A DNA stretch of 64,000 nt. Source: Picochlorum sp. 'celeri'. Taxonomy: Eukaryota > Chlorophyta > Trebouxiophyceae. Below are positions 22,452 through 64,000 of this stretch, one piece after another; positions within the stretch are counted from its first letter, which is position 1; every line of letters begins with the position of its first letter. Position numbers and translations under genes: made by a program. The DNA lies in assembly GCA_010909725.1 (NCBI GenBank), contig JAACMV010000019.1:682001-746000 (forward strand), read 5' to 3'. The notes under the pieces were generated by a model, which worked only from the letters and a program-made list of their open reading frames with translations, was not told where the DNA came from and made no database searches.

Positions 22452-24811
22452 TTATGCCTTCTTTGGTGTGTTCACTGGTTTGACTGGAGAAGAGGGAGTC
22501 TTGGTTGGAGCTGCCGTGCTTGCTTCTGTTGGCTTTGCAGCACCATTAGTTGCTGCAGGCTTTGCGGCACCGTTGCTGGTTGCCTTCTTGGCAGGAGCAG
22601 CCTTGGCCTTTGGTGGGGCTGGGGCTGGGCTCTTATCCACACTCATCACAGCTGCCTTCTTGGCGGCAGTCTTTTCCTCAGTTGGCATGACTGGGGCACG
22701 TGGCTTGATAGATGCTACAGTCTTGGCTGCTGGGGAAACTGGTGGGGTGCTTGTGCTTGTGCTCTTGGCAGCAGCCTTGGCAGCAGCAACATCAGCAGGC
22801 TTGGGTGATGGGGTAGGTGCGAAAGACTCTGGGCTCTCAATCTTCTGCACTGGAGTTGGAATGCTAGCCTTCACTGCCTCGGTCTCAGGAGCAGACTCTA
22901 CTCCATACTTGAGATTGGTCAAAATTGCTTCCCACTTCTTTGCTGGACCAGCCCAGGAAAGATCCTGGCTAATGCAAGCCTTTCTCATCTGCTCAAATGC
23001 TGGTGTTCCATAAACCTCAATAGCCCTCTTCATAGAAGAAGCAACAGCTTCAGCATCTTCGTCGAGAAGATCATCTGGATCCATAGCGCCCATCTGGAAC
23101 CCAGTGACACCCTCACTGACAGTATCAACCAATCCTCCAGTCGATGCAACCAATGGCACAGTTCCATAGCACATGGCGTGCAACTGGATCAAACCACATG
23201 GCTCGAAACGAGATGGGACGACCATGAAATCAGCACCTGCGTTAATCAAATGGGCAACCTGGGAGTTGAACTCCACAACACCTGCCGCAACACCTGGGAA
23301 GCGGGTCTTGAGACTCCTCACATCTTCCTCCAGGTCCTTCTTTCCTGTTCCCAAAATCACAACCTGAGCTCCAGCATCTCCGAGTTTATCAATAGCAGCA
23401 AGAAGAATATCGACACCCTTCTGTTCCTCAAGTCGTCCAATAAACCCAAACAATGGTGTAGATGGGGACACTGGGAGACCAGCCTCTCTCTGCAAAGATG
23501 CCTTGGCATATGCCTTTCCAGCATCCATTGTCTCCTCATTATACTTGAAAGACAAGAATTTATCAAGCGCTGGGTTCCAGTCAGCAACGTCCATGCCGTT
23601 CACAACACCCTCAATACCCTTGGCAGCAATCACCTCATTCAACTCCACACCAAGCTGTGGACCAGATGCCATCTCCTTGGCATAGGTTGGTGACACTGTC
23701 AACAACTTGTCGCACGCAGTGACACCAGCACGCAACCAGTTTGTCTTGGCAAATCTCTGCCCGACAGCACCTTCGTACATCTCACTGGCTGGGTTGGATT
23801 CATCAATCACCACTGGATATCCATCCTCGAATGAAAATCTTTCTCTGGATGACTCTGGAAGACCCAAATCACCAAACGTCTCTGGCCAGAAACGTCCCTG
23901 GAAAGCAATGTTGTGGATTGTGTATGCAACCTTGGCATCCATGAAGCGACCAGCTGGCTGCATCACATCCTTGATGTAGACTGGGATAAGGGCTGTGTGC
24001 CAGTCATTGGCAACAATGACGGAATCCTCTCCAGGCATGAATGGCAAGGCCGTGAAAGATTCAAGCGCAGCTTTGCAGAACAAGGCGAATCTCTTCTGGT
24101 TATCAACGTAATCGGCACCAGACTCTTTCCCGTAGAGTTTGCTTCCAGTCACCCCGTTGATCTTGGCCAAAAACCATGGGTGATCAACCCACACGCGGTG
24201 AACACCATCCTTGATGCTATGGAAGAACCTCACATCCTCACCATCCACATTCACAACCACGGAAGTATCCCAGGCATCAAAGTATTGATCATATCGTGGA
24301 GCAATGGAGAAGACGTTGTGACCTCTTTTGGCCAACTCAACTGGAAGACTGCCAGTAACATCACCAAGACCACCTGCATCAAAAATCCACCCAAGAATAT
24401 TAATATTATATTTATTAAAAACCAATAGACGGGAAATCGAGCTCAGAAATCGACCATCGCCCGATGTGCCAGATTGGTTGACCCAACCGAGCCATTCTGG
24501 CATACGGGAGCTCGCTGTACTCTCTTGGCAATGAACGCACCTGTCTTGGACCATGGAGACACCTCGGTGGCCACAAAAACAATATCCAAGAGCTTCTCAG
24601 CCTGTTCAGTCACACCAGGTGGGGCAACTGTTGGCGCAGGAGCTTCCACGGCAGCAGAGACAGAAACTGTACTCTTCCTCTGAGATGCTGATCTGGTCAC
24701 TCTAGAGGCATTCTTCAACACTTTGGAGGTACCAAAGTAATTGGAAGTGCGTCCGATGGCATTCTGTGTGCCAAAGGCAAAGGTTTTTGTTGTATTCTGG
24801 GCAGCAAGCAT
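22452..24811 (-). CDS. GBSS1: granule-bound starch synthase with long C-terminal tail
   Basis: Exons (minus) 24541-24811 and 22452-24373 (167-bp intron, GTGCGT..ATGCAG) give 730 residues. Residues 1-about 60 are a plastid transit peptide (MLAAQNTTKTFAFGTQNAIG). The GT5 catalytic region starts DIVFVATEVSPWSKTGGLGDV, with the ADP-glucose-binding KTGGL created by the splice. GBSS-like blocks follow: APRYDQYFDAWDTSVVV, VNGMDVADWNPALDKF, FIGRLEEQKGVDIL, SRFEPCGLIQLHAM, STGGLVDTV and QDLSWAGPAKKWE. The enzyme makes amylose in the starch granule from ADP-glucose. Beyond the family end lies a tail of about 145 residues rich in Ala, Pro, Lys, Thr and Ser. Green algal GBSS proteins can carry C-terminal extensions; this one is unusually low in complexity. 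Confidence 0.93.
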
Positions 24812-63331: not shown

Positions 63332-63407
63332 AGTTGGCGGTGGTACAGTAATACCATGGAAGGCATGTCTGTATCGACTTGTGAAAGTAACATACAAAGC
63401 TGGAAGC

Positions 63408-63451
63408 AATAAGTGGTGTACTTCCTTCTGGAAGGAAGTACGCTACTTATT
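63408..63451. repeat. 44-base near-perfect hairpin
   Basis: Arms 63408-63428 and 63431-63451 with a 2-base loop. The inner 11 bp (GTACTTCCTTC with GAAGGAAGTAC) are perfect; the outer 10 pair with two G-U type positions. It lies 53 bases from the 5' half of the permuted tRNA (downstream in its transcription sense). Confidence 0.75.
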
Positions 63452-63503
63452 GGTGGAAGCCAACAGAGTCTTGCAAAAAGCTTCTCTTTCCTTAATAAAA
63501 TTC

Positions 63504-63640
63504 CCTGAACCATACGCCTTAACCTCTCGGCCACACGATCGCTTTGATGGGAAGCTTCTGTCGATTTCGAAACTCCGATTCTTTTTAGTATTTCATTATG
63601 ATCGTGACAGGGTTCGAACCTGCGCTCTTTCGAATATGGA
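63504..63640 (-). tRNA. circularly permuted tRNA-Leu (anticodon CAG)
   Basis: Read on the minus strand, the 3' half comes first (63640 down to 63599) and the 5' half second (63540 down to 63504), with a 58-base linker (63541-63598). Rejoined, all parts of a leucine tRNA are present: acceptor stem GATCGTG/CACGATC (7 perfect pairs), D arm GCC..GGC with GAGAGGTTAA loop, anticodon stem TATGG/CCATA, loop TTCAGGT with anticodon CAG, a class II variable arm (3 pairs, GAAA loop), T arm GCAGG/CCTGT with TTCGAAC loop, and discriminator A. CCA is not encoded. The halves join between positions 37 and 38, where eukaryotic introns lie. The flanks pair GGGAA/TTCCC, and T32 can pair with A at -3, leaving a 3-base bulge as splicing endonuclease requires. 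B box precedes A box. T-runs follow at about 63497-63500 and 63475-63479 as Pol III terminators. Confidence 0.88.
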
Positions 63641-64000
63641 TATTCTGGGAAATAGTACAAAAGCGGAATTCTTCCATTGTCAATAAGCCTCTGATCCTTA
63701 GCCAGGACCTCATAAGTGAGGTCTTATACGGAATTTCCTCCCTCCACAGTGCATTATATTCACTACAATAAATATATTATTAATTTGTGTTGCATTCTAC
63801 GTCTTCTGATATGATATTTAGCGAATATTGTGTAGTATACGCGGAGAACGAAGCCAATGTTTCTAGGCCCAAGTCATACGGTCGTTTCCATCCATTGATG
63901 TTGTTACGTCTTAAATCATCTAAATTAGAACAACCACTTACTCATGATGGTTGCCAAGGTATATAAGCATTGCGACGACAATAATAGTCAACGAAGATAT
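63641..64000. other. spacer upstream of the permuted tRNA (minus sense)
   Basis: 360 AT-rich bases with no clear gene. It includes a perfect 7-bp hairpin with TAAG loop at 63706-63723 (GACCTCA/TGAGGTC) and the 5' leader of the permuted tRNA transcript. Confidence 0.35.

Follow-up and report, generated by a model that had tools for sequence, protein, structure and literature searches.

The locus analysed here carries the two halves of a leucine tRNA in swapped order, and it raises the question of whether such a permuted arrangement in Picochlorum sp. 'celeri' is a functional gene and, if so, how far it stands alone in its genome. The window, which is the whole stretch of 64,000 nucleotides that was analysed, corresponds to positions 682001-746000 of contig 19 (C19), and the genome searched comprised 27,412,692 bases in 30 contigs. 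The original prediction placed the 3' half (63640-63599, 42 nt) ahead of the 5' half (63540-63504) on the minus strand, and these boundaries were exact to the base. In window coordinates, the locus consists of the following parts:

63666..63671, minus strand: GAATTC at -31 to -26, the word AAATTC with one mismatch
63641..63652, minus strand: leader TTTCCCAGAATA, whose GAA lies at -5 to -3
63599..63640, minus strand: 3' half, nt 38-73, upstream in the transcript, with 100% identical copies on C11, C22 and C2
63541..63598, minus strand: linker of 58 nt between nt 73 and nt 1, with no T4 run inside
63504..63540, minus strand: 5' half, nt 1-37, with the anticodon CAG
63475..63503, minus strand: trailer after nt 37, with a T5 run at its end (63479-63475) that is likely a Pol III terminator

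Rejoining the halves yielded a class II tRNA of 79 nt with an acceptor stem of 7 of 7 pairs (GATCGTG/CACGATC), an anticodon stem of 5 of 5 (TATGG/CCATA), a T stem (GCAGG/CCTGT) with one G-U pair, the T loop TTCGAAC and the discriminator A, all of which agreed with the original prediction. The 3-bp variable arm claimed along with them stood in part, since three pairs (one G-U) are possible but the minimum-energy fold forms two. Scoring of the rejoined halves with a tRNA model had been proposed as a check, and ARAGORN, given the halves between T pads, reported tRNA-Leu(cag) with a score of 120.6; its length of 81 bases includes a T-A pair added from the pads. The 3' CCA is not encoded, as TAA comes directly after the discriminator, and runs of T4 and T5 lie at +4 and +25 downstream of the 5' half. 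An origin of the pattern from tandem ordinary tRNAs was considered and rejected because the flanks that were read contain neither a 5' half ahead of the 3' half nor a second 3' half following the 5' half. As a separate observation, a near-perfect hairpin lies just downstream of this gene (63407-63452) and of a permuted Leu(AAG) gene discussed below (around 1690-1740 in its alleles L001 and L004), and the hairpin loop downstream of Leu(AAG) has opposite orientations in the two alleles.

ARAGORN called no tRNA in the 64-kb window, and Rfam gave no match at or near the locus, its two matches in the window (GibS and mir-1) being both far under their gathering scores; that both tools miss the gene is expected because its halves are in the wrong order. 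A covariance model of permuted tRNAs (R1) was built from 10 tRNAs of this genome, none of them for leucine, whose halves were swapped computationally. On the 64 kb, its sole match up to an E-value of 10 was the Leu(CAG) locus (38.5 bits, E 6.4e-11), which bears out the permuted structure. R1 also partly matches ordinary loci, with 30.8 bits at a tRNA-Asn locus, and is thus not fully specific; further permuted genes were therefore accepted only after a stem-by-stem check. A scan of viral contigs with the Leu(CAG) 5' half gave 0 matches, and a query of the genome DNA with 13 tRNA sequences gave 0 candidates, a result that carries no weight.

The splice geometry, which the original prediction regarded as kept, held up in a comparison across genes. 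In Leu(CAG) the junction is of the 37/38 type, with an hBH-type splice motif and a 3-nt bulge. The leader ends in CCCAGAATA. Its GAA forms pairs with nt 32-34 of the loop and its CCC with G36, G37 and base +1, the first of the trailer, and the bulge TA^T lies at the 3' cut site, before the anticodon stem. Over 14 permuted genes of this genome (the second copy of Arg(UCG) and second haplotypes being left out), leader and anticodon loop paired in one register: the 32:-3 pair was present in 13 of 14, Ser(GCU) being the gene without it, while the other seven offsets tested gave 5 to 10. Shuffling the leaders gave a count this high in 1 of 20000 trials, and exchanging leaders between genes did so in 6 of 20000. 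Across nt 32-35, 45 of 56 cells paired, against means of 23.2 in shuffles and 32.1 in swaps, and neither set reached 45 in 20000 trials, from which we infer that each leader is fitted to its own anticodon. These figures should be read with the register and the four-pair span having been picked after inspection of the pairs, and with the genes being not fully independent because paralogues are among them (three Leu, three Ala, two Thr). The 3'-half starts of Met(CAU) and Thr(CGU) were set by hand on account of their variable loops, and the R1 alignment agreed with them. Ordinary introns of the same genome, with Ser(CGA) and Ser(UGA) left out, showed the same register in 10 of 11 genes (34 of 44 cells). 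The folding energy of the 180-nt Leu(CAG) precursor was ordinary (z -0.41; 68 of 200 shuffles as good). Its minimum-energy fold formed stems for the acceptor, the T arm and the anticodon arm, placed the 3-nt bulge at the 3' cut site and had an alternative hairpin (TGGCC/GGTTA) replacing the usual D stem.

A run of at least four T starts within 36 nt downstream in all 14 permuted genes. Upstream, the word AAATTC occurred within 70 nt in 17 of the 35 tRNA genes compared, the expectation from the window being 0.97; it was picked out by visual inspection and from a ranking of all hexamers in these very sequences. It stood in 8 of 14 permuted and 9 of 21 ordinary genes (for example at L126, L079, L011 and L015), with Ser(CGA), Ser(UGA) and the second copy of Arg(UCG) left out. 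In the permuted genes it lies at -32 to -43 from the 3' half, and one gene has a second copy at -67. The exact word is absent from the 70 nt upstream of Leu(CAG), which has GAATTC instead. AAATTC is a possible shared Pol III upstream element, and we suggest that such an element could make the reversed order of the A and B boxes harmless. A B-block TFIIIC domain was found in the genome at 30.8 bits, by a search whose control also matches 4 prokaryotes; transcription free of TFIIIC, as argued for Cyanidioschyzon merolae, therefore cannot be claimed here.

Genes for candidate processing enzymes were also found. The tRNA-intron endonuclease family PF01974 is represented by two kinds of gene, on C7/C24 and C10/C16, and an RtcB ligase gene lies on C7/C24 (E 8e-160). 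PF09511, the T4-type RNA ligase family, gave no match in the genome, in a search whose control was silent too. The PF01974 kind on C10/C16 has extra copies at C9:1564, C12:1564, C26:1564, C21:81237 and C25:30222, three of which sit 1.6 kb from a contig end.

Whether the cell needs this gene depends on other readers of CUG. The tRNA loci of the genome fall into contig pairs (C8/C17, C6/C28, C3/C23, C14/C18, C11/C19, C7/C24, C5/C20, C27/C15, C10/C16, C4/C30 and C22/C2), and the assembly is therefore a phased diploid, in accordance with the published description of P. celeri (27.43 Mbp in 2 x 15 scaffolds, 46% G+C; PMC7225527). A starch synthase encoded in the window (22452-24596, minus strand) matches a Picochlorum oklahomense transcriptome protein (taxid 249345) with 99% identity across 90% of its length, a match on which a Cyanidiophyceae source was rejected. 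The rejoined tRNA sequence gave 8 matches in the genome DNA, all of them to halves and all at four permuted places. Two of these are Leu(CAG) itself and its C11 partner; the other two, on C22 and C2, belong to a second locus, also permuted, that reads Leu(AAG). An ordinary Leu(CAG) gene, the search for which had been proposed with the original prediction, was found neither among these DNA matches nor among the 33 of 34 matches to RF00005 that were read. The remaining one, on C30, is the partner copy of Gly(UCC) on C4. With 63 of its 866 candidates scored, RF00005 gave at least 34 matches to ordinary tRNAs, so that a divergent ordinary copy is possible. In 10 stop-to-stop open reading frames of the window with Pfam matches, CTG accounts for 77 of 355 leucine codons, a frequency at which a CUG reader is required.

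Leu(CAG) proved to be one of many. By plain T-arm motifs across the genome, followed by reading of the places, each haploid set was found to have at least 15 permuted genes, covering 14 anticodons, and at least 23 ordinary ones, the permuted genes making up 15 of the 38 identified (39%); these tallies are lower bounds. The permuted genes, all with the junction at 37/38 (15 of 15), are the following:

Leucine: Leu(CAG), Leu(AAG), Leu(UAA)
Alanine: Ala(AGC), Ala(CGC), Ala(UGC)
Threonine: Thr(AGU), Thr(CGU)
Arginine: Arg(UCU), and Arg(UCG) twice on C8, as nearly identical copies at L094 (C8:59353, plus strand) and L097 (C8:537665, minus strand)
Others: Gly(GCC), Cys(GCA), Ser(GCU), Met(CAU)

They lie, for example, at L126 (C15:892142), L104, L068, L138, L066, L102 and L124, and further at L079, L094, L145, L162 and L165. 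Both R1 and our detector look for 37/38 only, and other junction types may therefore be missed. Linkers range from 11 to 128 nt, the latter in both Arg(UCG) copies. The only anticodon common to the permuted and ordinary lists is CAU. Since the ordinary CAU gene has a GGG/CCC anticodon stem, as initiator tRNAs do, the permuted one probably encodes the elongator tRNA-Met.

For the motif GGTTCRANYCC the survey covered 97 of 187 places (100 listed), of which 83 were read for the survey, 12 lay in known loci (one of them on C16) and 2 were allele copies on C16. For AGTTCRANYCT, 28 of 166 places (100 listed) were covered, 27 read for the survey and 1 in a known locus, and for GGATCRAWACC 14 of 90 places were read; for CGTTCRANYCG and TGTTCRANYCA the numbers read were 0 of 105 and 0 of 404. 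The ordinary genes for Ser(CGA) and Ser(UGA) were identified from ARAGORN calls and sequence reading only, and the anticodons of L033, L037, L100 and L129 were taken from our own detector in place of ARAGORN. Two ARAGORN calls were dropped, Val at L054, where no T-arm motif stands at the call, and Cys at L066, a misreading of the permuted Gly locus. The Phe call at L052 was changed to Ser(UGA) because the sequence resembles Ser(CGA) of L101; read this way, its anticodon stem has 4 of 5 pairs. A truncated T-arm-like piece, GAGGTCCCGGGTTCAAA, was seen directly before nt 1 of L013 (tRNA-Asn) and L029 (tRNA-Phe).

The two haplotype copies of Leu(CAG) are identical over 3042 nt; the stretch may therefore be unphased, and the copies were not counted as independent. 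The alleles of Leu(AAG) have 8 differences in linker and flanks (4 of 48 positions in the linker) and 0 of 79 in the mature tRNA. The mature part of Met(CAU) differs between alleles at 1 of 76 positions, and the Ala(CGC) alleles L104 (C10) and L169 (C16) differ at 8 of 72, mostly in the D arm. The Lys(UUU) alleles L021 (C3) and L024 (C23) showed T-stem changes on both sides of pairs.

Considering all these results, the locus is very probably a functional nuclear type II (37/38) permuted tRNA-Leu(CAG) gene, one of at least 15 in the Picochlorum haploid set, as judged from sequence. This is the best explanation because the rejoined tRNA is canonical, the locus is the sole R1 match, the junction pairs and does so in the register of ordinary introns, and further because of the T runs, the constancy of the mature Leu(AAG) tRNA between alleles, the enzyme genes and the failure to find an ordinary copy. 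The identical haplotypes, the z of -0.41, the missing exact AAATTC, the mature allele differences of Met(CAU) and Ala(CGC) and the paralogues in the junction test weigh against it. Following the circular-RNA maturation pathway described for red and green algae (PMC3978253), Pol III would produce one RNA of leader, 3' half, linker, 5' half and trailer; the tRNA-splicing endonuclease would cut after nt 37 and before nt 38, and RtcB would ligate nt 37 to nt 38 and so close an RNA circle, from which RNase P and RNase Z would excise the 58-nt linker. With CCA added, the mature Leu(CAG) tRNA would read CUG.

Three other readings were weighed. The locus might be a decayed or silent relic, its halves derived from a tandem tRNA duplication and its stems kept by chance, and partial tRNA-like pieces do exist in this genome, such as the T-arm-like piece abutting nt 1 of tRNA-Asn and tRNA-Phe. 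We consider this very unlikely, as the stems of Leu(CAG) are intact, leader and anticodon loop fit each other in the splice register, the alleles of the sister Leu(AAG) have 0 of 79 differences in the tRNA against 4 of 48 in the linker, and the matches read include no ordinary Leu(CAG). Even less credence is due to the idea that the locus mainly makes a stable circular RNA or a tRNA fragment in place of a decoding tRNA: the known pathway does predict a circular intermediate (PMC3978253), but the cloverleaf is preserved, leucine is often encoded by CTG (77 of 355 codons) and the matches read include no other gene for Leu(CAG). Least probable of all, to the point of being nearly negligible, is an assembly error or a chance juxtaposition of half-like sequences. 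The identical haplotype copies may be one collapsed stretch, which speaks for an error; however, the same junction is common to 15 permuted genes (several of them paralogues), and the alleles of Leu(AAG), Met(CAU) and Ala(CGC) differ yet are permuted in both haplotypes, while the R1 E-value of 6.4e-11 argues against chance. A functional permuted gene thus remains our preferred reading.

The relation between the two Leu genes bears on how permuted genes spread. Leu(CAG) and Leu(AAG) have 0 of 42 differences in their 3' halves and 3 of 37 in their 5' halves, and their linkers, with 5 substitutions and 2 gaps, are the best-matching of 91 gene pairs. Among the same 91 pairs, their flanks rank 43rd (40 nt upstream) and 28th (60 nt downstream). 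When the Leu pair was aligned locally, 0 of 1000 shuffles did as well as the linkers, 348 of 1000 as well as the 70 nt upstream and 1 of 1000 as well as the 90 nt downstream, and CTTTTTGCAA occurs in the downstream flank of both genes. RNA-mediated copying is one origin model for permuted genes (PMC3978253), and copying of circular RNA into DNA would leave such a pattern, with halves and linker alike and the 70 nt upstream at chance level; the weak similarity downstream, around a T run, counts against it. The reading that permutation is a major tRNA gene architecture in Picochlorum and that permuted genes multiply as units, through circular RNA copied into DNA, is accordingly one we hold to be unlikely. 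The simplest cause of the likeness would be gene conversion or the divergence of old flanks. In Ala(CGC) and Ala(UGC) the downstream flanks are alike as well, with 6 substitutions and 2 gaps over 62 aligned columns; this pair therefore arose when the DNA of an already permuted gene was duplicated.

The original prediction named Cyanidioschyzon and prasinophytes as the algae with permuted tRNA genes, which is correct as far as it goes, but the list is incomplete, as the trebouxiophyte Auxenochlorella is missing from it (PMC12636532). For C. merolae, a permuted Leu(CAG) of type II has been listed before (Soma 2007, PMC3978253 Table 1). It resembles that of Picochlorum in being the same isoacceptor with a 37/38 junction, a linker and no intron, whereas C. 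merolae is a red alga, its Leu(CAG) linker has 9 nt in place of 58, and it also has types I, III and IV, in contrast to the 15 genes found here, which are type II (PMC3978253). Ostreococcus and Micromonas (Maruyama 2010) have, like Picochlorum, green nuclear permuted genes, nearly all type II with hBH motifs, but 3 to 6 per genome compared with at least 15 (PMC3978253). Auxenochlorella UTEX 250-A is, like Picochlorum, a trebouxiophyte with a diploid streamlined genome and permuted tRNA genes, and its tRNA set from tRNAscan-SE is described as incomplete (PMC12636532). The longest permuted linker in the 2014 review is 74 nt, against 128 in Arg(UCG) here (PMC3978253). Among the titles and abstracts returned by a literature search, none reported permuted tRNAs of Picochlorum, and in the accessible text of the Picochlorum SENEW3 paper the tRNAs come from tRNAscan-SE and the word 'permuted' does not appear.

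Taken alone, the Leu(CAG) gene is one more member of a rare class that was already known, and the surprising part is the genome-wide scale. The 2014 review counted 34 permuted genes in seven organisms, with a maximum of 11 in C. merolae (PMC3978253), and the set of at least 15 in Picochlorum exceeds this largest one. P. celeri has been described as Cas9-editable, and the 14 leader-anticodon pairs in one alga could provide a test bed for splice recognition and for the origin and spread of permuted genes.
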